This document shows positions 4,805-53,602 of a DNA stretch of 64,000 bases, in pieces. Origin of the DNA: Mannheimia haemolytica (lineage in GTDB: Bacteria; Pseudomonadota; Gammaproteobacteria; Enterobacterales; Pasteurellaceae); assembly GCA_900638155.1 (NCBI GenBank), contig LR134495.1, forward strand, positions 496,001 to 560,000. The letters run 5' to 3'. Numbering within the stretch: the stretch's first letter is position 1; each line of letters opens with the position of its first letter. The position numbers and the translations under genes were made by a program. Under the pieces are notes generated by a model. That model saw only the letters and a program-made list of their open reading frames with translations. It was not told the DNA's origin and searched no databases.

Positions 4805-6022
4805 TTATGATTTATTGTAAGGATATCGAAGAATCACTTTATTATAAAAATTACCGTTAATGTGTGTTTTATGTAAATGATATTGCCTATATCCTTTAAA
4901 AACCTCAGTATTTGGTGGTTGTGGATTGATCCAAAAAGCAGCTAAGTCTTGTTGATCTGTTAAGCCATCAAAATCATAGTTAGCTCTACCTAAGGTTTTC
5001 ACCGGCATATTGTGTAACAATGCGGAAAGGCCACTTGTTGAATTCAATGTCACCATACCTTTTCCATGTCGTAAAAATACCGGTAAAGGAACATCGTGAA
5101 TATAAAAAACTCTGCCGTTTAATTGAGGATATTTTTCCAAGAATTCATAAATCACTATTTTATAATCTATAAACCCTCTATCCATTGGGTGATGTTTAAT
5201 AATTAAATTCAAATGTGTTGGTGCGAACTTAGCAAAGGAATTTAATACTTCTCTTAAAAAAACCTCAACGCTTTTTTGGTCACAATGTACTCTCACTTGA
5301 GTATCATCATAAACCTGTAATGGCACGATGAAAAATTCACCGAACTCGCCTTGCTCAACCCGCTTTGCAAAACCACTATCATGTACCCAGTAACGAAGTC
5401 TCTTAATAGCCGATCTTGTCCACAAATTAACGTAATATCCTATATTGATAAAACGGTGATGTTGATATTTAGAGTAAATTTTTCGCTTTTTATAGGCATT
5501 CCAATAATAGAATATTGCTTTGCTTGCCATCTTTTTAAAACCTTTAGACACTTTTTCAGGCTCATTTAACTTAGGTAATGTCGAATAAGGCAAAAAGAAA
5601 GATGAATTTCTTTGTAGAGGAGAAAATGCGTTTACACCCCATTTTTCAAGTGTAATATATTCGGGGCGGAAATATCCTTCTTCAAACGCCCAGAAAATAA
5701 TATCCAATTTTTGGCAAACATTTTTAGCTACCTTATGGTAATAACGATTATCGCCAAAACATAATATATTATCTATTTGATGCTTTTTACAAAAATCAAT
5801 TAAATAATCTTCAAAACTATCTAAGTTTTCATAATAAGGAAATGTATTAGCTTTATTATTTGGATAAAAATACTCATCTCCACCATTAAAATTTAATTTG
5901 AATACCGTTTTTTTCTCACTTTCTAGCCAAAGTGCAAAATCAGTAAAAAAAGAACCTATTGGGCCTTGCAATAATAAAATACGCTGACTATTATTAATTA
6001 GCTCATCTAAATAATGTTCCAT
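4805..6022 (-). CDS. kpsS: Capsule lipid-linker Kdo transferase, KpsS/LipB/HcsB family
   Basis: A 405-residue KpsS-type protein. In E. coli, KpsS adds the first beta-Kdo to phosphatidylglycerol, starting the poly-Kdo linker that anchors ABC-exported capsules. The family signature EEGYFRPEYITLEKWG is near residue 112, KHHPMDRG near 278, and a conserved TLNSTSGLSALLH block near 328. The start follows AAGGAAT. It is the last gene of the leftward capsule transcript, 18 bases after kpsC. The Pasteurellaceae names phyB (M. haemolytica) and hcsB (H. influenzae) denote the same role. Confidence 0.9.
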   Translation of the reverse strand: MEHYLDELINNSQRILLLQGPIGSFFTDFALWLESEKKTVFKLNFNGGDEYFYPNNKANTFPYYENLDSFEDYLIDFCKKHQIDNILCFGDNRYYHKVAKNVCQKLDIIFWAFEEGYFRPEYITLEKWGVNAFSPLQRNSSFFLPYSTLPKLNEPEKVSKGFKKMASKAIFYYWNAYKKRKIYSKYQHHRFINIGYYVNLWTRSAIKRLRYWVHDSGFAKRVEQGEFGEFFIVPLQVYDDTQVRVHCDQKSVEVFLREVLNSFAKFAPTHLNLIIKHHPMDRGFIDYKIVIYEFLEKYPQLNGRVFYIHDVPLPVFLRHGKGMVTLNSTSGLSALLHNMPVKTLGRANYDFDGLTDQQDLAAFWINPQPPNTEVFKGYRQYHLHKTHINGNFYNKVILRYPYNKS

Positions 6023-6040
6023 TCCAAATTCCTTGCACGG

Positions 6041-8131
6041 CTATTTAGTATTAGATGTATATTTAAACGCTCGATAAAGATGTTGTAGCTTCCCATACTG
6101 TTTACTTACCCAAGAACGTTTAATTTCTTGATTCACTAGATTATTTTTTTGTTTTTCCAATAAATTTATTGCTTGATTGGCATCAATAAATCTTCCTTGT
6201 ATCGGATCAACATACAGAGGATAATATATTAATGTTGCTGCAATTAACTGTGGTAATGTTAAAGATTTACCCCTGCGTTCCAACTTCAATAAATCTTCCG
6301 TCAATCCCCAACCTGCATAGAACGGTAACCCATAACAATATACTTTTTTACCTCTTAATAGTGCCTCAAAACCGGCTAAAGAAGTCATTGTATGTACTTC
6401 ATCAACTTTAAGAATACAATCTAAAATATTGGCGTTATCTATAATTTGATCAGCAAACTGAAGTGTTTCCTTCGTTACAATTTGGCCAACCCGATTACCA
6501 CTTACGACATCAGGATGAGGCTTATAAATAATATACGCATCCGGATTCAATTCCCTGACTTTTCTCAGTAAATCCGCATTTTTCTTAATTTGTGGAGAGC
6601 CTGATTTGATCGAAGCGTCATCTTCTACCTGCCCCGGTACAAGAATTATTTTTTTACCTTGAGCATTAAATTTTACATCGCCACCGCCCACATTATATTT
6701 TCCAATATGGCTAACCACTAATTTCTGCCTTAATGTTTCAGCATAAGACAAATCAGTTTCAGAAAAATGCTCTGCACTCAATAAAATTTGTTCTAATCGT
6801 GAAGTGTTCTCTGCATTAAAATAAATGCCTAAATCATCGACTACTAAAGAAAGCGGTGCAACTAAATTAGCGCCTAGTCCGACAGAGCGAATGAATCCAT
6901 CTTCCATTCTTAACAATGGAATATTATTCTGCTGTGCAAATTGCAAGACATCCGCTTTACCATTGCTCCAAACTAAAATTTTTGCATTATCTGCAAGCGG
7001 TCGTTTTTTTAAAGAATTTAGCGAACGAACAAAATGTAATCGACATTGTGGCAAATTAAAAAACGGCTTAATTACCGCCTGTTTCCATAGCGACATACCA
7101 ATACAGTATAGATTCCCACTTAAGCGCTGATTTAATCTTTTGGCTTTATATAGATAATCGATGACATCAAAAATAGAGCCTTTCTCACCGGTATTCGGAT
7201 TAATATAACGGCTGTAATCAAAATACGCCGCATAAAAAAGTTGCAGTAATGAACGATCTTTCCGTCTATTTTGTTGAACTAATAGTTGAACAGCTTCGTT
7301 ACGATCATCTGTTACCCCCCAACCGGCAAACCAAGGCACACCAAAGGTAATCACTTTTTTGCCTAAGAGTAACGCTTCAAACCCCATTTGCGAAGTTACG
7401 CAATAGACTTTCTCACACCATTTAATCAAACTTGCAGGATTCACATCTTCGGTGATAATACGGACTCTCTCAGCATATTGTGACAAATCGGTCAAGTAGC
7501 CTTTTTTCTTGCCACTTAATACATCAGGGTGGGTTTTTACCCAAATTTGAGCCCCTGGATTTTCACGGATTGCCGCTTCCAACATTTTATTGAAATCAAC
7601 TTCACTTGCCTGACCATATTTCACCGCCATATCTCCAAAGGTTTGGTCAATAACTAACACAATTTTTTCTTTGGCAGAGGGGATTTCACTAAAATCTAAT
7701 GCGTGATTATATTTAGAAAGCTGATAAGTTAAGATTTGGTACAAAGCTTTCTCTGCAAGCTTAATTTGCTCTTGATCCTGCAAAGGTTGTTCAAGCAGGA
7801 ATTTTTCTAAACGGGAAGGACGAGTAGTATCGTAATAAATCCCAATATCGTCATACACTAAAGAAAAAGGCGGATAGCCTTTTACACCTAATCCTAATGA
7901 GCGTAAAAAGCCGTCCTCTAATGCGACATAGGGAATGTGGTGTTTTTTTGCATAATCCCTTGCTTTTACCGTTGAAGGGCGAAGCCCCCAGCCGATGATT
8001 TGATCTACTTTAGTTTTAGAAATAAACTTAACAGTAAAATAAGATTTTTGGATTAGAATGCTTTCAGGTAAAAAACTCTGCAAAAAAGGGATTTTAAAAA
8101 TCCCTTGAGAAAAGATAAAAGAATGATACAT
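6041..8131 (-). CDS. kpsC: Capsule poly-Kdo linker transferase, KpsC/LipA/HcsA family
   Basis: A protein of about 696 residues made of two tandem related modules, as in E. coli KpsC, whose halves alternately add beta-2,4 and beta-2,7 Kdo to the lipid linker. The duplication is plain: EDGFLRSLGLG near residue 72 and EDGFIRSVGLG near 410; SLVYDDIGIYY and SLVVDDLGIYF; then GFEALLLGKKV...FAGWG and GFEALLRGKKV...YAGWG. I chose the ATG at 8131; an in-frame TTG two codons upstream is possible. It lies 25 bases downstream of glf and upstream of kpsS, forming region 3 of the capsule locus. Confidence 0.92.
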   Translation of the reverse strand: MYHSFIFSQGIFKIPFLQSFLPESILIQKSYFTVKFISKTKVDQIIGWGLRPSTVKARDYAKKHHIPYVALEDGFLRSLGLGVKGYPPFSLVYDDIGIYYDTTRPSRLEKFLLEQPLQDQEQIKLAEKALYQILTYQLSKYNHALDFSEIPSAKEKIVLVIDQTFGDMAVKYGQASEVDFNKMLEAAIRENPGAQIWVKTHPDVLSGKKKGYLTDLSQYAERVRIITEDVNPASLIKWCEKVYCVTSQMGFEALLLGKKVITFGVPWFAGWGVTDDRNEAVQLLVQQNRRKDRSLLQLFYAAYFDYSRYINPNTGEKGSIFDVIDYLYKAKRLNQRLSGNLYCIGMSLWKQAVIKPFFNLPQCRLHFVRSLNSLKKRPLADNAKILVWSNGKADVLQFAQQNNIPLLRMEDGFIRSVGLGANLVAPLSLVVDDLGIYFNAENTSRLEQILLSAEHFSETDLSYAETLRQKLVVSHIGKYNVGGGDVKFNAQGKKIILVPGQVEDDASIKSGSPQIKKNADLLRKVRELNPDAYIIYKPHPDVVSGNRVGQIVTKETLQFADQIIDNANILDCILKVDEVHTMTSLAGFEALLRGKKVYCYGLPFYAGWGLTEDLLKLERRGKSLTLPQLIAATLIYYPLYVDPIQGRFIDANQAINLLEKQKNNLVNQEIKRSWVSKQYGKLQHLYRAFKYTSNTK

Positions 8132-8156
8132 TTTCAATGTAAATAATTCAGGTAAT

Positions 8157-10287
<2,131 letters not shown>

Positions 10288-10293
10288 TTTTTA

Positions 10294-11016
10294 TTATCTA
10301 CAAGTCCTTGGGCGAGGTTTGCCTGTTTTTAAAATAACATCAGGAGCATATCCTAAATGCTCATATAATTCTCGATGTTTAGGTATTCTCATCTTTAGCA
10401 TTCCCTCTATATTATTAATATGATTATATACAATCTCTTGAGATTTAATATAATCAAGATGATGATCATCATTTTTTCTAACAAAGCGAGGAGCACTAAT
10501 TGGGTTATTATTTGAATCTATTAATGCATATAAGCAATTAATGGTTGGAATAATCTCTGAAATTCTATTTGCAAAATCTAACATCAAATTTCCTCTTACT
10601 TTGTATGGTAAAGGAGGATAATCCCAGTAACCATCTTTAAGACCTGTTGGGGGGGCTGTGAAAACAGCAAAAATATTATAAAATCCCATATTATTCAAGA
10701 ATTTCTTCAGTTCTAATAGTCCTTCACACATTTCATTTAAAAAAAGAGGAATATCATAATAATGTTGATGATACATTTTATAAGGTAAATTAAAATCAAT
10801 ATCTACATTACCAAAATGAAGAAATATATTTGTGTCTTTAGAAAGACTTTTAAGATAAGGAATATAAGGCTCCATATCTTTATTAGATTTTTTCAAATTT
10901 CTTAATCCTCTTGCACTCCAACCAGATGCCCAAAATGGGTAATATTGAGGATTATTCCCAAATATATAATCAAACACTTCGGAGGAAGATGAACCAAAAA
11001 CAATAATATTACGCAT
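10294..11016 (-). CDS. SGNH-like capsule-locus protein, paralogue A
   Basis: A 240-residue protein I do not recognise by name, the last of three tandem paralogues. A GDS-like block I reads FGSSSSE (residues 7-13), where the first aspartate is replaced by Ser. The shared block FWASGWSARGL is at 28-38, a G-x-x-D block (FGNVD) at 68-72 and DDHHLDY at 183-189. The order matches SGNH/GDSL hydrolases and the GDSHT...GEID proteins of glycan loci. It ends in Thr-Cys-Arg, as do both neighbours. There is no signal peptide or membrane segment, so it is cytoplasmic. It may modify capsule precursors (for example O-acylation), but that is inference. Confidence 0.6.
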   Translation of the reverse strand: MRNIIVFGSSSSEVFDYIFGNNPQYYPFWASGWSARGLRNLKKSNKDMEPYIPYLKSLSKDTNIFLHFGNVDIDFNLPYKMYHQHYYDIPLFLNEMCEGLLELKKFLNNMGFYNIFAVFTAPPTGLKDGYWDYPPLPYKVRGNLMLDFANRISEIIPTINCLYALIDSNNNPISAPRFVRKNDDHHLDYIKSQEIVYNHINNIEGMLKMRIPKHRELYEHLGYAPDVILKTGKPRPRTCR

Positions 11017-11046
11017 AATTAATCTAAATGATACCTTTTAATAACA

Positions 11047-11766
11047 TTATCTACAAGTCCGTATTCTAGGAGAATTATCCCTTAAAATAGATTTAATATG
11101 CTTAGGCACATGTACATACAATTCAGTATGTTTAGGACTCCTTTGTTCTAAAATCCCATCAATTTCTAATAAATTAGAATAAATTACATCTTGTGCTTTT
11201 ACATAATCAATATGGTGATCATTCTTATTTCTAAAAAATGAATAAGCACAAACAGGATTATCTACCGATTCAATTAAAGAATAAAAACAATCAATCATAG
11301 GAATAGACTGAGATAAAATTTTTACAAAATTTAAGTATAAATTTCCTCTTGTTTTATGAGGTAGAGAAGGATATGCCCAATATACATCAGGTAATCTTAT
11401 AGGAGCTATAGGAAGAGCCGCATATATATTTGAAAAACCTAATTTATTCAGGTAATCTCTCAATGCTAAAATACCTTCACACATTTCCTCTATAAATTTA
11501 GGAAAGTTATAAAATCTTTGATTATGGATTTTATAAGGTAGATTAAAATCTACATCTCCAAAGCACAGGATTATATTTGCATCTTTTGATATTTTTGATA
11601 AGTAAGGAATATAAGGCTTCATTATATTATTAGACTCTTTTACTTCTCTCAATCCTCTTGCACTCCAGCCAGATGCCCAGAACGGATAATAACTAGGATT
11701 GTCACCAAAAATATAATCGAATACCTCAGCTGATGATGTTCCAAAAACTACTAATTCTTTATACAT
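11047..11766 (-). CDS. SGNH-like capsule-locus protein, paralogue B
   Basis: A 239-residue paralogue, closest to copy A along its whole length. Block I reads FGTSSAE (residues 8-14), then FWASGWSARGL at 29-39, FGDVD at 69-73 and NDHHIDY at 182-188, ending PRIRTCR. The candidate serine and the paired histidines are kept, but the usual block III asparagine is not. It is cytoplasmic by sequence. It lies 17 bases after copy C and 30 bases before copy A on one transcript. Function is unknown; the alternatives are a capsule acyltransferase or esterase, or a non-catalytic partner. Confidence 0.6.
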   Translation of the reverse strand: MYKELVVFGTSSAEVFDYIFGDNPSYYPFWASGWSARGLREVKESNNIMKPYIPYLSKISKDANIILCFGDVDFNLPYKIHNQRFYNFPKFIEEMCEGILALRDYLNKLGFSNIYAALPIAPIRLPDVYWAYPSLPHKTRGNLYLNFVKILSQSIPMIDCFYSLIESVDNPVCAYSFFRNKNDHHIDYVKAQDVIYSNLLEIDGILEQRSPKHTELYVHVPKHIKSILRDNSPRIRTCR

Positions 11767-11783
11767 AAATAATCCAACTTAAT

Positions 11784-12524
11784 TTATCTACAGGTATTTT
11801 CCCTTGGTTTCTGCTCTTTTCTTACAGTATCAATCCCGACATTTTTATGAATATAATGTACTGTATGTTTAGGATTTCTTTGTGACAGCATACCTTCTAA
11901 TTCAGATAAGGCAGAATAAATAAGGTCTTGAGCCTCAATAAAATCAATATGGTGGCTAACTCTAGCTCTAGTATAATCAGGCGAACAAACAGGATTTTTA
12001 TATGATACTATCAGTTTATCTAAGCAATTAATACTAGTTGTCAATTTGCTTACTTCACTCGCAAAATCTAACAACATCTGCCCTCTTATTTTTAGTGGGA
12101 AAGGCTTAAACTTAAAACAATTTTCCCAATGGCTATTAGGTAACCAAATAGGAGGAGAAGTAAATATAGGATATATATTTTTAAAACCATAATTATCTTG
12201 TAAAAATGATTTAAAAATAATTATGCCATTAATCATTTCTTTTAAAAAAAGAGGGAGATTATAAAATCCAGTATCTCTTGCTAGTATCGGCAAGCCAAAT
12301 TCTATATCTGTCATACCAAAATGAAGTAGTATAATAGTATCTTTAGGTAACCCTTCTAGAGTAGAAGCATAAGGCTTAATATCTATATCAGAATGTTTAA
12401 TTTGGTTTAAGCTTCTCGCACTCCAACCCGATGCCCAAAATGGGTAATAGTTTTTATTCTTTCCAAAAATATAATCAAATATTTCTGCGGAAGAGTCTCC
12501 AAAAACAACTAGTGGTTTTTCCAT
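11784..12524 (-). CDS. SGNH-like capsule-locus protein, paralogue C
   Basis: A 246-residue paralogue and the most divergent of the three. It alone keeps a canonical GDS in block I (FGDSSAE, residues 8-14). It has FWASGWSARSL, FGMTDIE as block III and SHHIDF as block V, and ends ENTCR. The start is the ATG at 12524, preceded by AAGAAGGAA; an upstream ATG at 12566 lacks a ribosome-binding site. Between the blocks an insertion near residue 128 distinguishes it from A and B. The retained GDS makes it the best candidate for catalysis. Role in capsule modification is inferred from position only. Confidence 0.6.
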   Translation of the reverse strand: MEKPLVVFGDSSAEIFDYIFGKNKNYYPFWASGWSARSLNQIKHSDIDIKPYASTLEGLPKDTIILLHFGMTDIEFGLPILARDTGFYNLPLFLKEMINGIIIFKSFLQDNYGFKNIYPIFTSPPIWLPNSHWENCFKFKPFPLKIRGQMLLDFASEVSKLTTSINCLDKLIVSYKNPVCSPDYTRARVSHHIDFIEAQDLIYSALSELEGMLSQRNPKHTVHYIHKNVGIDTVRKEQKPRENTCR

Positions 12525-12630
12525 TAATATATTCCTTCTTACTAGCGTATAAATTTTTGAAATCATAGCATCTATAGTTTATTGCTATTAAATATACATC
12601 CTACTATAAATAATAGAATGTATATAGGCA

Positions 12631-14391
12631 TTATGAAAATATAGTCTTCCAGAAACTAAATTCCTTATATTCGCTGATTTTACTCCAATTATTTTCTTTA
12701 ATTGCATTAATATAAGTTTTTCTTGCCTTTAATATTTCTGAAAGTAATTGACGGAAAGTTTCCTTATCAGGTGAATATAGGTATAAATAGCTTTGGATTC
12801 CATTAGTCTTAATATAAGGTTTGCAGGAAACATTTTGAGGAGCAACATCTCTATCCCATAAATGTTTAGCTTTATGTTTAGAAAAATCATTCATATAGAG
12901 TAACATTGTCTGTTTGGCGAAATTAATTCTCCGCTCTGTCGAAATCCATTTTGGCTTTAATTCATTGTTACTAGTTGGATTAAATACTGTGCTTTCTAAA
13001 CTTACTGGAGCAAATTTTTTGGCTATATCACTAACCTTTTTATGAATTTCATTCGATGGAACATCAAATAATGCAGTTCCTTTAGCAAAATCATTAATAG
13101 CCTCTAAAATTAATTTAACAGACTGATAATCATGGCATAATAAAAGATTATAAATTTTTAAGAATAATTTATTCACATTTTCACTTTTTAATTGCTCATA
13201 GCTACTTGTTAAAATCATTCTATTTCTAAAATCATAATAAGTTTGCCAGCCCCCTATTTTGGCATAGAATGGTTCGTGCCATAAAGCAACTCCAGGCAAA
13301 CCGACAGTTTCTACACCACTATTTTTTAATCGCAATCCATACTCTAAGTCATCACCACGAATAAAAATTGGAGCTGGAAGATTAATTTCTGCTATTTTCT
13401 TAGTAGGAATCATACAGAACCACCAAGCATTATAATCAATCTTTGTTACTTTATTGAATAGATGAAAATTCGCCATATCAGCAACATCTAAATTATGAAA
13501 AATTGCTTTTATATTGCCATTATCATCTAATTTTCCACCATATTCGTGCATAAAGTTAGGTCTTAATAGGTCTAACATTTGTCCACCGACTGCGATTTCT
13601 TTTTTAGATAGACTTGCAAAACAAAATGCTGTTTTGATGACATTTGCATCAAGTATGATGTCATCGTCCATTAACAAATGGAGATCAGATATCTCATTTT
13701 GAGAGGCTTCATACAATGTTCTAGTAAATCCTCCTGCTCCACCTAAATTATCTTGTTTATAGACTTGAATTAGGGTTGGATTAGACTCTATTAATTTAAC
13801 TAGCTTCTTATTGGAAAATAGATTTCCTTGGTTAACAATAATAATCTTACTTAAGTTTGGAAGCTTTTTAGAAAGATCTAATAATGACTCTAAATTCTGA
13901 CACAAGAAATCTTCCTTATTAAAAGTACATAATCCAATACTTAATTTTTTCTCAATAGTATCAGGAATACAAAATTCAATAGATTCAATTTCAGTATTAG
14001 TATTTCTAGAATCTATATCAATAAAGATGCGACCAGTATCAGGAATTAAATCATCCAAAGATAAATTCAACTCTATTGTTTTCATTTCAGATGAAATCAA
14101 ATGCGAGTCTAATAGTAGGTAGCATCCATTCATAGGGCTATCTCTATAAATAGATACAACACAATCGCCTTTAAATTTTACAGATAGGATAACAGATGAA
14201 AGAGTAGTATATTGCTTCCAATAACTTTCATAAAAAGAATTTAAGTAACTATTAAAAGATACTTTTGAGTTAGGATGTAAAATCAAAGAAGAATTGAGCA
14301 AATCATAACGACCATATAGAAGATTTAAATATAATTTTTTAACCTTTTCTAAATTAGATCTAGGAAATTGTAAAGATTGAATAGAAAACAT
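12631..14391 (-). CDS. GlfT2-like polymerising galactofuranosyltransferase
   Basis: A 586-residue protein with the three-part build of mycobacterial GlfT2: an N-terminal beta-rich domain (about 1-148), a GT-A domain, and a helical C-terminal region. Matching motifs are CTFNKED at 155-161, NLGGAGGFTR at 215-224, metal-binding DDD at 242-244, VGGQML at 268-273, YNAWWFCMIP at 320-329, GDD at 346-348 and WHEPF at 371-375. The 24-residue spacing between the GDD aspartate and His372 equals that of GlfT2 Asp372/His396. GlfT2 polymerises Galf processively, so this is the likely capsule polymerase. It is first in the leftward transcript and very AT-rich. Confidence 0.82.
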   Translation of the reverse strand: MFSIQSLQFPRSNLEKVKKLYLNLLYGRYDLLNSSLILHPNSKVSFNSYLNSFYESYWKQYTTLSSVILSVKFKGDCVVSIYRDSPMNGCYLLLDSHLISSEMKTIELNLSLDDLIPDTGRIFIDIDSRNTNTEIESIEFCIPDTIEKKLSIGLCTFNKEDFLCQNLESLLDLSKKLPNLSKIIIVNQGNLFSNKKLVKLIESNPTLIQVYKQDNLGGAGGFTRTLYEASQNEISDLHLLMDDDIILDANVIKTAFCFASLSKKEIAVGGQMLDLLRPNFMHEYGGKLDDNGNIKAIFHNLDVADMANFHLFNKVTKIDYNAWWFCMIPTKKIAEINLPAPIFIRGDDLEYGLRLKNSGVETVGLPGVALWHEPFYAKIGGWQTYYDFRNRMILTSSYEQLKSENVNKLFLKIYNLLLCHDYQSVKLILEAINDFAKGTALFDVPSNEIHKKVSDIAKKFAPVSLESTVFNPTSNNELKPKWISTERRINFAKQTMLLYMNDFSKHKAKHLWDRDVAPQNVSCKPYIKTNGIQSYLYLYSPDKETFRQLLSEILKARKTYINAIKENNWSKISEYKEFSFWKTIFS

Positions 14392-14690
14392 AATAACCCT
14401 AATAAAAATTTAGACTTAATGAAAATACTAGTTAACAATATCTTCAATTAGAATTTAGCTACAATTTTATCTTGTAAAAAACTTGTAAAAAAGATATTAC
14501 TAAATATCTAGTTTGTAGATAAGACAATGTTATACCATATTATCCCTCAAAGAAACATACTTTAAAATCCCTTGAAATATTGATAAATCGACCTTACCTT
14601 TTATGGATGGATTTAATATCAATATGTTCCCTAGAATAAAAAGATATATGGTATACTATTCATACTCATACCTCAATAGTAGTTAAAATT
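14392..14690. promoter_or_regulatory. Divergent capsule promoter region
   Basis: This AT-rich, 299-base gap separates the leftward specific block from rightward bexD and must contain both promoters. A TATACT at 14652-14657 is a plausible -10 for bexD, but I see no good -35 at 17 bases. An 11-bp tandem direct repeat (CTTGTAAAAAA) occupies 14471-14492 and runs into a small hairpin (AGATATT/AATATCT, 14492-14509). I found no JUMPstart/ops element. Regulation is otherwise unreadable. Confidence 0.5.
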
Positions 14691-15875
14691 ATGCATATGA
14701 ATATTAACAAAATAACCTCTATTTTAGTAATGATAACCTTACTTTCTGCTTGTTCTAGCTTACCTACCTCGGGTCCAAGTTATAGTGAAGTCTTATCAAG
14801 TAATGAAAATACATCTGAAACACAGTTGCCTGAAGTCAATTTAATCAAGTTAGATAACATCACCGTACAAAACTTATACCAAGCTCAACAATCTCAACGT
14901 TTTTCCGGCTTTGATGGAACAATGGGTGTAGGAGGTTATGCCGGAACAGTGAATGTCGGTGATGTGTTGGAAATATCAATTTGGGAAGCTCCACCTGCCG
15001 TGCTATTTGGTGGAACATTTAGTGCTGAAGGGCAAGGTAACGGGCATTTAACCCAATTACCACAGCAAATGGTAAATAAAAACGGAACAGTTACAGTGCC
15101 TTTTATCGGTAACATTAAAGTGGCAGGGAAAACACCTGAAGCAATTCAGAACCAAATTGTCGGAACATTGAGCCGTAAAGCCAATCAGCCTCAAGCATTA
15201 GTTCGTATTGCGAATAACTTATCGTCTGATGTTACGGTTATCCGCCAAGGAAATAGCATTCGTATGCCATTAAGTGCCAATAATGAGCGTATTTTAGATG
15301 CAGTTGCGGCAGTAGGCGGTACAAGCGAAAATATTGAAGATGTAACAGTTCGTTTAACACGTGGAAATAAAGTGCGTTCAATGGCGTTCGAAACATTAAT
15401 TGCCGACCCCTCACAAAATATTACATTACGTTCAGGTGATGTTGTAGCCTTAATGAATACCCCTTATAGCTTTACCGGATTAGGTGCTGTAGGTAATAAT
15501 CAACAAATGCGTTTTTCAAGTAAGGGGATAACGCTTGCCGAAGCTATTGGTAAAATGGGGGGATTAATTGATGAACGTTCAGACCCTCGAGGTGTTTTTG
15601 TATTCCGCCATATTCCATTTACGCAATTAGATTATAACGATCAATCTTTATGGCGTGAAAAAGGTTATACAGAAGGAATGGATGTGCCAACCGTTTATCA
15701 GGTGAATTTATTAGAACCACAATCAATGTTTTTATTACAGCGTTTCCCAATTCAGGATAAAGATATTGTTTATGTATCAAATGCACCTTTGTCTGAATTC
15801 CAAAAATTCTTAAGAATGATTTTTTCGATTACATCACCTATTACAGGTACAGCAAATACGATCAGAACTTTTTAA
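14691..15875 (+). CDS. bexD: Capsule outer-membrane export lipoprotein (BexD/CtrA/Wza-like)
   Basis: A 394-residue OPX-family protein, the outer-membrane channel through which the capsule leaves the cell. A signal peptide ends in a lipobox LLSAC, giving a predicted lipidated Cys near residue 21. The poly-export motif is visible as VNVGDVLEISIWEAPP, followed by VPFIGNIKVAGKT and two SLBB-like segments. It is first in the bexDCBA operon and equals CpxD of A. pleuropneumoniae. The ATG at 14691 and one two codons later are both possible. Base composition is close to the genome norm, unlike the specific block across the promoter. Confidence 0.92.
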   Translation: MHMNINKITSILVMITLLSACSSLPTSGPSYSEVLSSNENTSETQLPEVNLIKLDNITVQNLYQAQQSQRFSGFDGTMGVGGYAGTVNVGDVLEISIWEAPPAVLFGGTFSAEGQGNGHLTQLPQQMVNKNGTVTVPFIGNIKVAGKTPEAIQNQIVGTLSRKANQPQALVRIANNLSSDVTVIRQGNSIRMPLSANNERILDAVAAVGGTSENIEDVTVRLTRGNKVRSMAFETLIADPSQNITLRSGDVVALMNTPYSFTGLGAVGNNQQMRFSSKGITLAEAIGKMGGLIDERSDPRGVFVFRHIPFTQLDYNDQSLWREKGYTEGMDVPTVYQVNLLEPQSMFLLQRFPIQDKDIVYVSNAPLSEFQKFLRMIFSITSPITGTANTIRTF

Positions 15876-15947
15876 TCATTGATTAAAAATATATTTGCAA
15901 AAAAGCCTAAAAAAATAACCGCTTGTAATCTATTTATTGAGGACATT

Positions 15948-17051
15948 ATGTCAAAAAAGAAAAAAAGTTTTTTAGCCAATCCATTACTTTGGCTAACAGT
16001 AATTATTCCAACAGCTTGTGCGAGTATCTATTACACGTTATTTGCTTCTGATATTTATATTTCAGAATCAAGTTTTGTTGTGCGTTCTCCTCGTAATCAA
16101 TCTAGCTTAACCGGTGTGGGGGCAATATTACAAAACTCAGGCTTTGCCCGTTCACAAGATGATACTTATTCTGTACAGGAATATATGCGTTCGCGTACAG
16201 CTTTGGAGCAGCTTGAAACAGAATTACCTGTAAAAAGCTTTTATAGCACACAAGGTGATATTCTAAGCCGTTTTAATGGCTTGGGTTTAAATGATTCGCA
16301 AGAGGCATTTTATCGTTATTTTAGAGAGCGTCTTAATATTGATGTTGATGCAATTTCCGGTATTGCTACTTTACGTGTGAGAGCCTTTAATGCTGAAGAA
16401 GGGCAACAAATTAATGAAAATCTTCTCAGACAAGGTGAAGATCTGATTAATCGTCTGAACGAGCGAGCCAGAAAGGATACTGTTGAGTTTGCCGAGCATT
16501 CAGTTCAAGAAGCTGAAAAAAATGTAGGTGATACAGCTCTCGCATTAAGCCAGTACCGTACAAAAAATAAAATTTATGACTTACCTGCTCAGTCAGGTGT
16601 TCAACTTTCGTTAATTTCAACTTTAAAAAGTGAATTAATTCGTGTTGAAACTCAGTTAGCACAACTGCAATCTATTACGCCGGATAATCCTCAGGTAGCC
16701 GCACTACAAACAAGACAAAAGAGCTTAAGAAAAGAAATTGATGAGCAATCAAAACAGCTTTCGGGTGGAAGTACATCTGTTGCTACGCAAACCGCTGAAT
16801 ATCAACGTTTAGTATTGGCAAATGAGCTTGCTCAGCAACAACTTGCAGCCGCAATGACTTCATTACAAAATACGCGTAGTGAAGCTGATCGCCAGCAGCT
16901 TTATTTAGAGGTGATTGGTAAACCAAGCAAGCCGGATTGGGCATTGGAACCCTACAGAATTTATAATATTATATCAACTTTTTTTATCGGCTTAATTCTA
17001 TTTGGAGTATTAAGTTTGTTAATAGCAAGTATCAGAGAGCATAAAAACTAA
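15948..17051 (+). CDS. bexC: Capsule export inner-membrane PCP protein (BexC/CtrB/KpsE-like)
   Basis: A 367-residue polysaccharide co-polymerase that spans the periplasm between the ABC transporter and the outer-membrane channel. A transmembrane helix lies near the N terminus (LLWLTVIIPTACASIYY). A long coiled-coil periplasmic region follows, with many Gln/Leu heptads around residues 170-310, and a second helix near the C terminus (ISTFFIGLILFGVLSLL). I chose the ATG at 15948 with GAGGA upstream; an in-frame TTG at 15879 would add 23 residues without support. The last bases overlap the bexB start. Confidence 0.92.
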   Translation: MSKKKKSFLANPLLWLTVIIPTACASIYYTLFASDIYISESSFVVRSPRNQSSLTGVGAILQNSGFARSQDDTYSVQEYMRSRTALEQLETELPVKSFYSTQGDILSRFNGLGLNDSQEAFYRYFRERLNIDVDAISGIATLRVRAFNAEEGQQINENLLRQGEDLINRLNERARKDTVEFAEHSVQEAEKNVGDTALALSQYRTKNKIYDLPAQSGVQLSLISTLKSELIRVETQLAQLQSITPDNPQVAALQTRQKSLRKEIDEQSKQLSGGSTSVATQTAEYQRLVLANELAQQQLAAAMTSLQNTRSEADRQQLYLEVIGKPSKPDWALEPYRIYNIISTFFIGLILFGVLSLLIASIREHKN

Positions 17052-17848
17052 TGAGATATGGTGATAATACAACCTTTAAACGTTCCTGTGTGATTCAAAA
17101 ACGGGTGATTCACGCTCTTTTAATGAGGGAGTTAATTACTCGTTATGGGCGTAAAAATATTGGTTTTTTGTGGCTTTTTGTTGAACCTCTACTATTAACT
17201 TTACTTATTGCATTATTATGGACATATAGCAAAGCCGATCAATTTTCTACTCTAAATATAATTGCTTTTATGATTACGGGATACCCTATTACTATGATGT
17301 GGAGAAATGCATCTAATCGAGCCAAAGGAGCTATTGAGGCAAATATTAGTCTTCTGTATCATCGAAATGTAAGAGTATTAGATACTATTTTTTCTCGTGT
17401 TTTACTGGAGATAGCAGGTGCAACAGTCGCACAAATTTTCATAATAATAGCATTTATTATCCTAGATTGGATTGAGCCTCCTAACGATGTTTTCTATATG
17501 CTAGTAGCTTGGATATTAATGGCATTTTTTGCCTTTGGATTAGGATTGATTATTTGTGCTATTACATATTATGTCGAAGCTTTCGGTAAAATATGGGGAA
17601 TTTTGAGTTTTGTGTTGTTTCCTCTATCTGGTGCAATGTTTTTTGTCCATAATCTCCCCCCTAAAGTACAAGAAATAGCTCTTTGGTTTCCTATGATTCA
17701 TGGTACAGAAATGTTCCGTAACGGTTATTTTGGAGAAACAGTAATCACTTATGAAAATATTAGCTTTATTATTGTTAGTGATATTATTTTTATTTTCTTG
17801 GGATTATTACTAGTGAGGAATTTTAGTAAAGGAATTGAACCAAGATGA
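17051..17848 (+). CDS. bexB: Capsule ABC transporter permease (BexB/CtrC/KpsM)
   Basis: A 265-residue ABC-2 type permease with about six hydrophobic segments, carrying the lipid-linked capsule chain across the inner membrane. The N-terminal [19 protein letters not shown] is the usual cytoplasmic entry segment, and [15 protein letters not shown] precedes the last helices. Its start overlaps the bexC stop (TAATGA) and its stop overlaps the bexA start (ATGA), so the three are translationally coupled. Confidence 0.93.
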
Positions 17849-18492
17849 TTAGTGTTAAAAATGTAAGTAAGCAATATCGAACTAATAATGGTTGGAAAAC
17901 AGTACTGAAAGATATTAACTTTGACTTACAAAAAGGCGAAAAAGTGGGGATTTTAGGAAGAAATGGCGCGGGAAAATCAACCTTAATTCGTTTAATGAGC
18001 GGAGTAGAGCCACCATCAACAGGATCGATAGAACGCAAAATGTCTATTTCTTGGCCCCTGGCATTTAGTGGAGCTTTCCAAGGAAGTTTAACCGGTATGG
18101 ATAATCTACGGTTTGTAAGTAGAATTTATGGCGCAGACTTCGATTATGTAAAATCCTTTACTGAAGAATTTTCTGAGCTAGGAGAATACTTATATGAGCC
18201 GGTCAAAAGCTATTCTTCCGGTATGAAAGCTAGACTTGCTTTTGCCTTATCGCTTTCTATTGAATTTGATTGTTATTTAATTGATGAAATAATAGCTGTT
18301 GGAGATGCCCGATTTGCAGCAAAATGTAAGAATGAGCTGTTTGAAAAACGCAAAGACCGATCATTGATATTGGTTTCCCACAGTCCGACATCTATTAAAG
18401 AGTATTGCGATTCCGCAATGGTGCTTGAAGAAGGGATAATGCATACCTTTGATTCCATTGAAAGTGCGTATAATTTCTACAACAAAAAGTAA
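17845..18492 (+). CDS. bexA: Capsule ABC transporter ATPase (BexA/CtrD/KpsT)
   Basis: A 215-residue ATPase that powers capsule export with BexB. Walker A GRNGAGKS is at residues 38-45, the signature [13 protein letters not shown] near 122-134 and Walker B with CYLIDEI near 142. The His switch is in VSHSP. Length and the short C terminus match the BexA/KpsT group, which exports by recognising the Kdo-lipid terminus; longer Wzt proteins have an extra carbohydrate-binding domain that is absent here. It is last in the operon and ends 5 bases before a perfect 58-bp palindrome. Confidence 0.94.
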
Positions 18493-30098: not shown

Positions 30099-30410
30099 TT
30101 ATCTTCTAGAAATTAAAACACCTAATAATAACCCGACCACACCGGCAACTGTAATTGCTTTATACGGATTATCTTGAACTAAGGTATCAGTTTGTTTAAC
30201 TACAGTTCTTGCACTATCAATGGTATCATCTTTTAATGTTGCAAAACGATCTTTTACATCATCAAACTGTTTTGCTAATTTATCTTTTAACTTTTTATAT
30301 TCTTCCGTAGAAGAATCAGATGTTTCATTAAATAATTCCTCTGCATTTTTCAAAATATCGCGAATCTCGTTTGTTAACTCTTCACGTTTTGCATCTAAGC
30401 TTTTAGCCAT
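30099..30410 (-). CDS. DUF883 family protein (ElaB/YqjD/YgaM-like)
   Basis: A 103-residue tail-anchored protein: a soluble charged helical part with heptad character (residues 1-75), then VQDNPYKAITVAGVVGLLLGVLISRR, the DUF883 C-terminal membrane anchor with a GxxxGxxxG-like face. In E. coli, YqjD binds inactive ribosomes at the inner membrane in stationary phase. It is first of three genes in this small operon. Confidence 0.88.
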   Translation of the reverse strand: MAKSLDAKREELTNEIRDILKNAEELFNETSDSSTEEYKKLKDKLAKQFDDVKDRFATLKDDTIDSARTVVKQTDTLVQDNPYKAITVAGVVGLLLGVLISRR

Positions 30411-30619: not shown

Positions 30620-32077
30620 TTAAATCATTGTATTTAATGCTTCAGTTAATTTTTGGTAACGCTGATATTTTGTCTGATAAGCCGCATAATTTTCCAGATT
30701 TGGCTCAAACACCTGCATTTCATTATTTAGGGCTTGAACTTGGCTTATATCCAGTCCAGCTTCTTGAATTGCCATTAATGCTGCTCCTAAGCAGCCGGTT
30801 TCTTCCATTTGTGGCACTTCGAGTCGCATTCCGGTTAAATCCGCCAACATTTGCATCCAAACTTTAGATTTCACCGGCCCACCGGTAACTCGCAACACAT
30901 CAGCCTTTGGAAAGCGGATAAACATACGGTTTAAATGGGTCATCAAGCTAAACAACACGCCTTCGTAAATTGCCTGCAAGAGATGGGCTTGGGTATGGTG
31001 GGCTTGCATACCGTAGAAACCGGCTTGCATTCCTAAGCCTGCATTCGAACCATACAAAAACGGCACAAACAGCACCGAACTTGCCGCTGGCGGTAATTGG
31101 GCAACTGCTTGGTTGATTTCTGCATAATCGAGTTTCCACTGCTTCATAAACCACTCTAAATTACCGGAAGAAGTCGGGCTTGCCTCGTGGACGATAAATT
31201 TCCCTGCCTCTGCATAACGCCCATAAACAAAAGGTAACTCTTGGCTTGCATCAATATTATCGGTAATGCCGCTCACCACCGACCACGTCCCCAGCACAGC
31301 ATTGAGTTTGGTTTCATCATCTAAATTAGCACAACGTGCGGTAGAAACCACATCGAATAGACCACCGACAACAGGTGTACCCACCGCTAATCCGGTTAAT
31401 TTAGCGGCATTTTCCGTTACATATCCTGCAATTTTATTTGGCTCAATCACCGGCGGTAATTTCTCCAACACATCTGACATTCCCAATAAATCGGCTAACT
31501 GTTGGTCGTATTCGCCTTTTTCCATATTATAGAAATTGCTTTCGGAAATGTTGGTTTCTTCGCAATGCAGCTCACCGGTTAAGCAAAAACGCAGATAGTC
31601 GTGCGACATCAACACCGCCCCGATTTGTGCATAACGCTCAGGTTCATTTTTTTGCACCCATTTCAAAATCGACACAGGGTGTCCTGTCCAAAGAGTTTGG
31701 CGGGTAATAGGGTAAAGTTTTTGCGGAATGCCTTCAGCCTGCCACTGTTTAACAATCTCAAGCGAGCGTTGGTCGGAAGATAAAATTGCACGCCCCAACG
31801 GTCGATTCTGCTTATCCAGTAAAAACGCCCCTTTGCCTTGGGCGGAAATGCCCACACCTTTGATATCAGAAGGGCTAACACCGCTTTTTTCAATCGTTAG
31901 TCGCACTACTTCCGCACACACAGCCCACAGCTGCGACATATTACGCTCGGCATAACCAGCATATTCGCTGATTACCGAAACATTTTCACGATGAAGGGCT
32001 TGAATATTACCTTGTGTATCAAAAAGAGCGGCTTTGATAAAAGTCCCGCCACAGTCAATACCGAGAGTGTAGTTCAT
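30620..32077 (-). CDS. lyxK: L-xylulokinase (FGGY family)
   Basis: A 485-residue carbohydrate kinase very similar to E. coli LyxK and H. influenzae HI1027. The N-terminal phosphate-binding GIDCGGTFIKA, SAQGKGAFLLD, TRQTLWTGHPVS, a central PVVGGLFDVVSTA and late LRVTGGPVKSKVWMQMLAD and EETGCLGAA are all present. It phosphorylates L-xylulose (and probably 3-keto-L-gulonate). It is the last gene of the dlgD-yiaLMNO-lyxK run; the sgbH/sgbU/sgbE genes that usually follow are absent here. Confidence 0.93.
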   Translation of the reverse strand: MNYTLGIDCGGTFIKAALFDTQGNIQALHRENVSVISEYAGYAERNMSQLWAVCAEVVRLTIEKSGVSPSDIKGVGISAQGKGAFLLDKQNRPLGRAILSSDQRSLEIVKQWQAEGIPQKLYPITRQTLWTGHPVSILKWVQKNEPERYAQIGAVLMSHDYLRFCLTGELHCEETNISESNFYNMEKGEYDQQLADLLGMSDVLEKLPPVIEPNKIAGYVTENAAKLTGLAVGTPVVGGLFDVVSTARCANLDDETKLNAVLGTWSVVSGITDNIDASQELPFVYGRYAEAGKFIVHEASPTSSGNLEWFMKQWKLDYAEINQAVAQLPPAASSVLFVPFLYGSNAGLGMQAGFYGMQAHHTQAHLLQAIYEGVLFSLMTHLNRMFIRFPKADVLRVTGGPVKSKVWMQMLADLTGMRLEVPQMEETGCLGAALMAIQEAGLDISQVQALNNEMQVFEPNLENYAAYQTKYQRYQKLTEALNTMI

Positions 32078-53507: not shown

Positions 53508-53602
53508 TGGCGGAAGTGCATGGGAGTTGAACCCACCCGAGAACGCTGGCGTCCTCAACAGGATTTGAAGTCCTGCCACCTCACCGGAGATGACGCACTT
53601 CC
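53508..53602 (-). tRNA. selC: tRNA-Sec (anticodon UCA)
   Basis: A 95-nt gene with the long acceptor/D-stem geometry and large variable arm of selenocysteine tRNA, closely matching E. coli selC. The acceptor stem starts GGAAGTGC, the anticodon TCA is read from bases 53568-53566, the TPsiC loop is GGTTCAACTCC, and the 3' CCA is encoded. It inserts selenocysteine at UGA with SelB. It is divergent from selA, 67 bases away. Confidence 0.97.

Follow-up and report, generated by a model that had tools for sequence, protein, structure and literature searches.

Three tandem genes in a capsule locus

The DNA analysed here (the window) is a stretch of 64,000 nucleotides from Mannheimia haemolytica (contig LR134495.1, positions 496,001 to 560,000), taken from a genome of 2.34 Mb in one contig (G000), and the subject of this report is a set of three adjacent genes on its minus strand, denoted copies A, B and C, that lie within a capsule locus. 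Copy A (10294..11016) encodes a protein of 240 residues with a predicted SGNH fold and the sequence GSS in Block I; copy B (11047..11766), with GTS, encodes 239 residues; and copy C (11784..12566), with GDS, encodes 246 residues if translated from the ATG at 12524, or 260 if translated from the in-frame ATG at 12566. The original prediction, made from the sequence of the window before any database search, had described three co-directional reading frames of 239-246 residues, differing in Block I as indicated, lacking the usual Asn in Block III and sharing a FWASGWSAR stretch, a G-x-x-D block, a His pair (residues 185/186) and a terminal TCR. It held in all these respects, as it did in assigning the genes to a capsule locus. 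The three proteins are related far above chance (132 identical residues of 238 between A and B, 114 of 240 between A and C, and 112 of 239 between B and C), and identities to A of 55% for B and 47% for C suggest that both adopt the fold predicted for A.

The minus-strand capsule cluster is tightly packed, with intergenic gaps of 6 to 64 bases, and reads from 14391 to 4805 in the order GlfT2-like glycosyltransferase, C, B, A, GlfT1-like glycosyltransferase, glf, kpsC and kpsS. The first of these genes (12631..14391) scores 65.3 bits against Pfam Glft2_N, above the cut-off of 26.1, and encodes a probable galactofuranan polymerase. The GlfT1-like gene (9358..10287), a GT2 glycosyltransferase according to Pfam, has GlfT1 as its top NCBIfam match (E 1.8e-43), with 148.9 bits under a cut-off of 330, and its product is a probable priming or second galactofuranose (Galf) transferase. 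The glf gene (8157..9308; TIGR00031, 330.6 bits for a cut-off of 303.75; Pfam GLF) encodes the UDP-galactopyranose mutase, which makes UDP-Galf. Two genes matching Pfam Capsule_synth are candidates for the transferases that build a linker of 3-deoxy-D-manno-oct-2-ulosonic acid (Kdo): one at 6041..8137, matching in three stretches, which we take to be kpsC, and a kpsS-like one at 4805..6022, for which NCBIfam KpsS gives E 2.1e-110 and 369.7 bits, under the cut-off of 600. The open reading frames (ORFs) of four capsule export genes lie on the plus strand (14691..18492), presumably specifying an outer-membrane lipoprotein, an inner-membrane/periplasmic protein, an ATP-binding cassette (ABC) permease and an ABC ATPase, and a Walker A motif, GRNGAGKST, is readable among them. 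The known roles of these gene families would call for no sugar donors other than UDP-Galf and CMP-Kdo and, therefore, the capsule is likely a galactofuranose polymer.

The trio recurs, with its order unchanged, in a locus (L007) of a second genome of the genus (G002, matching Mannheimia sp. USDA-ARS-USMARC-1261), which also carries the four export genes in the same order. Copies A, B and C are 91, 87 and 86% identical to their counterparts (gaps counted), and the copy C counterpart retains a similar N-terminal extension, as with the start at ATG 12566. The dN/dS ratios between the two loci are 0.106 for A, 0.136 for B and 0.072 for C, all three being under purifying selection; those of the neighbours are 0.064 for glf, 0.059 for the GlfT2-like gene, 0.166 for the GlfT1-like gene, 0.083 for kpsS and 0.103 for kpsC. 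Copy B of the window strain has a Block III two residues shorter than its orthologues (P0004 and that of L007), and the gap adjoins a position (75) that F occupies in 77 of the 79 aligned family members; this short version of B may be impaired.

Some further features of these stretches were recorded. The GlfT1-like protein (9358-10287) is 79% identical to its L007 counterpart, versus 95% for glf and 93% for the GlfT2-like protein. The capsule cluster (4805-18492 in the window, 2510-16211 in L007) occupies different chromosomal sites in the two Mannheimia genomes, and in L007 it is flanked by the homologues of two window genes, one with its end at 30410 and the other with its start at 30620, as well as adjoined by a short ORF that, we presume, may belong to a transposase. 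The sole tRNA detected in the window is a tRNA-Sec gene (53508-53602, anticodon tca).

A conserved family with a predicted SGNH fold

Conservation was counted over the 79 aligned family members. Ser10, Glu13, Asp16, Tyr17, Gly20, Trp29, Trp33 and Arg36 are invariant (79/79), and His185, His186 and Asp72 are each present in 78. Ser10, placed through sequence and secondary structure, corresponds to the catalytic Ser of Block I, and Gly32 (75/79) to the oxyanion Gly of Block II, while His186 was assigned to Block V by its position just ahead of the last long helix. Position 184 is D in 50 members and N in 23, so that a D/N-H-H sequence stands in place of DxxH. At position 9, where the three copies differ, S occurs in 72 members, D in 4 and T in 3. 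Therefore, GSS is the norm and GDS the exception, this position is unlikely to be catalytic, and the notion that GDS identifies the active copy was rejected.

The model of copy A is confident and shows the SGNH alpha/beta/alpha arrangement, as originally proposed; sialate O-acetylesterase and GDSL acylhydrolases are among its closest folds, and the structural matches end by about residue 209, the residues beyond forming a family-specific tail. The case for an SGNH fold, based on this predicted structure, is strong. Sequence searches were far less informative: even with E values of up to 1 allowed, A, B and C matched nothing in Pfam or NCBIfam, copy A found no match among PDB sequences, and the family profile retrieved from PDB two chance-like chains (best E 0.043). 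Over the 79 members, the best NCBIfam match was FusH (E 0.0029, five members) and the best Pfam match was Lipase_GDSL_2 (E 4.8e-7, under cut-off), the latter in an additional C-terminal domain, a second SGNH domain, of P0074 (445 residues; match at residues 319-424). Another relative, P0082 (458 residues), has long low-complexity ends and looks, on reading, like a protein of eukaryotic or protist origin. No relative was found in a viral contig collection, and a viral origin is not supported. The family is real and conserved, and it has no curated family model.

The C-terminal tail is more variable than the three copies would suggest. The exact TCR end occurs in 31/79 members and a C-terminal extension in 26/79; of the 53 sequences lacking such an extension, 52 finish in R-x-x-T-x or close to it. 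The Cys is present at the aligned position in 44/79, copy C of L007 ending in TCI, and the firmest tail residue among those counted is Tyr218 (78/79). The shared TCR had been thought to suggest a docking or a metal/thiol role; the replaceable Cys led us to reject the latter, whereas the tail may yet serve in docking or in lining a site.

Nine of the 79 relatives (P0018 is an example), but not A, B or C, carry an additional N-terminal domain, a beta-trefoil close in fold to CBM42, a furanose-binding type. At the sequence level the likeness does not extend to family membership, AbfB reaching at best E 0.028, in 3 of the 79 members, with two members scoring 13.2 and 12.5 bits for a cut-off of 22.8, and a search for further CBM42-like N-terminal domains returned P0018 itself and P0017 only. 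The fusion of a CBM42-like domain to members of this family is described here for the first time.

Distribution and link to galactofuranan genes

Scanning 84,980 species, with one genome per species, yielded 510 stretches with the family pattern, of which 10 were confirmed, corresponding to 9 loci; together with the window and G480 (L075), 11 genomes were available. In 7 of the 11 (the window, L007, L011, L013, L014, L015 and L075) no more than about 2.6 kb separates a family member from a GlfT2-like gene, L015 retaining family remnants only. This association of the family with GlfT2-type galactofuranan genes is new. The Pfam model PF17994 finds no match in L011 and L015, whose glycosyltransferases match by BLAST with E near 1e-22 to 1e-25 and, therefore, counts based on it are low estimates. 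Used alone, it is positive in 4 of 7 Rhodobacterales holders of the family versus 28 of 394 comparison genomes, with a Fisher p of 0.001 that serves as a guide, as the groups overlap (G168 and G170, at least, belong to both) and were not matched by genus. The family itself is present in 3 of these 394. Sphingobium (L014; G171 C1:403455-403790) seemingly has three GlfT2-like genes in the vicinity of its family member, the Glft2_N match of one of them lying just past the fetched stretch.

The family profile matches 3 of 140 Pasteurellaceae genomes: two of the same genus, with three copies each, and G070 (L020), where a short remnant is left (E 2.2e-4). In the latter, a short ORF (L020 1249-1557) opens with a remnant of the family C-terminal tail, and it is adjoined by an ORF that we take to be priming-glycosyltransferase-like. 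Among the 11 Pasteurellaceae genomes with a GlfT2-like match, 9 lack the family (G132 matches only in the glycosyltransferase domain). Given this rarity among GlfT2-like holders, the family appears to be accessory to galactofuranan systems and not a part of the synthesis. There is a good case for galactofuranan as the target polymer, and the proposal that the three copies act on the same polymer is supported, this polymer being now probably identified.

Repeated duplication and decay

A tree of 83 sequences, built by a quick method and with SH-aLRT support only, groups the clades of A and B together (95, starred) and sets C apart (100, starred), metagenomic relatives grouping with each copy. 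The duplications therefore predate the split of the two Mannheimia species, so that the duplication origin put forward for the trio was borne out, and it is old. A separate tandem arrangement was found on a plasmid of Leisingera sp. NJS204, where two adjacent members, 55% identical, directly precede glf and a GlfT2-like gene is located at a distance of 2.5 kb. The second of these copies (P0066) and P0037, which is 75% identical to the first, fall within a starred clade of 25 sequences that does not include A, B or C; therefore, duplication occurred at least twice. In Leisingera aquimarina and Leisingera sp. M527 both tandem copies are partly deleted (L015 9252-10228; L107 5969-6696), glf and the GlfT2-like gene being kept, which fits a dispensable surface decoration. 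Both the independent Leisingera pair and its decay in two relatives are first described here.

Proposed function and alternatives

We consider it about an even chance (probability near 0.5) that the three copies encode cytoplasmic O-acyltransferases of the SGNH fold, O-acetyltransferases most likely, that decorate nascent galactofuranan on a lipid-Kdo anchor. According to this proposal, Glf would make UDP-Galf, KpsS and KpsC would build the Kdo linker, the GlfT1-like enzyme would prime and the GlfT2-like enzyme then polymerise, A, B and C would modify different hydroxyls or positions of the anchored polymer, and the ABC system would export the decorated product. At the putative active site, Ser10 would attack the acyl donor, His186, helped by Asp/Asn184, would serve as the base, and His185 would help to position the acceptor. 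The oxyanion would be held by backbone amides and by Arg36, which falls in the Block II stretch and would substitute for the absent Block III Asn.

A number of observations weigh against this reading. Position 71 is V in 42 members, T in 18, A in 15, M in 2, Q in 1 and N in 1, so that the Block III Asn is confirmed to be missing, and an Asp three residues before His186 (position 183) is found in 1/79; therefore, the protein could be inactive. A profile comparison with three GDSL (PF13472) proteins gave a probability of 0.1, that is, no sequence relationship, a result that neither supports nor excludes homology. The DHHW proteins, which the family recalls in its D-H-H sequence, are circularly permuted (His before Ser), whereas the family is not, Ser10 preceding His186, and the likeness is one of motif, not of membership. 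No membrane acyl carrier was seen on reading 4805-18492 (the genome was not searched for one), and the SGNH domain of OatA, on its own, cannot use acetyl-CoA (PMC9558356). The genomic link has its own gaps: the GlfT2-like gene lies on another contig in 3 of the 11 genomes (L072, with glf and a KpsS-like gene; L073, with glf; L074, with ABC export genes); in one more, a metagenome-assembled genome (G167), no such gene was found. Moreover, the GlfT2-like calls in L075 and L106 are based on BLAST and sub-cut-off Pfam matches, and that of the L014 neighbour on BLAST alone. Finally, the N-terminal domain of P0018, in a single-sequence PDB search, gave 10 matches (E 0.45-1.1), none of them CBM42.

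The departures at Block III and DxxH have counterparts in active enzymes: in BcPatB1, which has a TDHHW sequence, an Arg of Block II replaces the Asn of Block III, CE2 enzymes employ Ser-His dyads, and SASA enzymes lack the Asn (PMC9487903). They are, therefore, of known kinds, and by analogy the combination found here points most to a transferase. There is a moderate case for O-acylation by the family.

A complex of one active and two supporting subunits, the other possibility originally raised, is not favoured, since Ser10, Arg36, His185 and His186 are kept in all three copies, all of them are under purifying selection relative to L007, and GSS is the family norm. That the proteins are non-catalytic binders of galactofuranan or of the GlfT2-like polymerase, acting as scaffolds or export adaptors, is likewise improbable, as catalysis better accounts for Ser10, Arg36 and the His pair being so strictly conserved over 79 sequences. 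It is unlikely that they are cytoplasmic O-acetylesterases trimming or proofreading acyl groups on the Galf polymer or its precursor: the closest folds of A do include esterases and acylhydrolases, and a dyad of Ser10 and His186 could be enough, as in CE2 esterases (PMC9487903), but no other acyltransferase that would create the substrate was seen on reading the locus, the Arg/DHH pattern has been described for a transferase, and three esterases on one polymer are harder to explain.

An acylating or capping enzyme acting at the non-reducing Galf end, which would stop GlfT2 and set chain length, is quite unlikely. BcPatB1 is described as exo-acting (PMC9487903), a CBM42-like domain could hold a terminal furanose, and ABC export genes are present in the window, L007, L011, L013, L015 and L106 loci. 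However, GlfT2-like genes occur without the family, so that capping by it is not generally required, and three copies are odd for a single cap. A different reaction on this polymer, or on its lipid, such as non-acetyl acyl or phosphate-like transfer, might account for the invariant E13, D16, Y17, W29 and W33, which the SGNH blocks leave unexplained, but no direct evidence points to a different donor and we regard it as highly improbable. A more far-reaching form of the O-acyltransferase proposal can be advanced only tentatively and is, in our opinion, rather doubtful: that these are pre-export, cytoplasmic SGNH acyltransferases of galactofuranan, with an Arg oxyanion hole, a D-H-H within an SGNH fold that is not permuted and, in some species, a furanose-binding trefoil, multiplied independently in Mannheimia and Leisingera, each copy marking a different position or the chain end.

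Comparison with known systems

One close parallel is that with BcPatB1 and the DHHW proteins, BcPatB1 being a secondary cell wall polysaccharide O-acetyltransferase. The family shares with them the D-H-H of Block V and the placement in a glycan locus, and in both the Block II Arg is conserved and the Block III Asn is not. The residue after the His pair, in contrast, is never W in the family (0/79; A 33, P 19, I 16, others 11), and DHHW was not among the 24 Pfam families listed for the 79 members at E up to 1. Structures of DHHW proteins and AlgX were not among the 50 matches listed for each structure search, which excludes nothing. DHHW proteins are also extracytoplasmic and have a membrane partner, whereas, on reading, no signal peptide was seen in A, B and C and no membrane partner in the locus. 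With the SGNH/GDSL esterases 4hf7, 4iyj and 6njc the family shares the fold over residues 1-208, the Block I Ser and the Block II Gly; it differs in lacking the Block III Asn and DxxH, in having an extra conserved Trp/Arg block, and in its tail (209-240), which remains unaligned.

O-acetylated glycans, sometimes containing Galf, are likely the common outcome of this family and of the AT3-SGNH and stand-alone AT3 O-acetyltransferases (OatA, WciG, WcjE). These are membrane proteins acting extracytoplasmically, whereas the three proteins described here look soluble, and reading the capsule locus revealed no AT3 gene (AT3 being, we assume, Pfam01757). WciG and WcjE acetylate Galf in pneumococcus (PMC9558356), and in the Haemophilus parainfluenzae O-antigen an O-acetyl group, likely on Galf, was assigned to a Pfam01757 enzyme (PMC3989065). 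Regarding the polymer, the pamABC galactan of Kingella kingae is likewise a Galf homopolymer made with a mutase and a GlfT2-like synthase, but it is linked to lipopolysaccharide, the five pam genes encode four glycosyltransferases and the mutase, and the word 'acetyl' is absent from the main text of that report (PMC12269835). Compared with CBM42 arabinofuranose-binding modules, the N-terminal domain of some relatives has in common the trefoil fold and one His/Asp motif, but it scores under the Pfam cut-off, contains the motif once rather than three times, and is fused to an SGNH domain. Among the matches listed from open-licence PMC titles and the beginnings of abstracts, most of the subscription literature falling outside this scope, no account was found linking SGNH proteins or CBM42 to galactofuranan synthesis.

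As a genomic marker, the family can point to galactofuranan systems in Mannheimia, its kin and some Alphaproteobacteria, and its natural fusion to a domain of furanose-binding type offers a test object for Galf binding. If the O-acyltransferase proposal is correct, the system would serve to test if a cytoplasmic acyl donor is accessible to an SGNH protein acting by itself, and acylation of a capsule by soluble cytoplasmic SGNH proteins before export would differ from the extracytoplasmic routes represented by AT3, PatB and AlgX.
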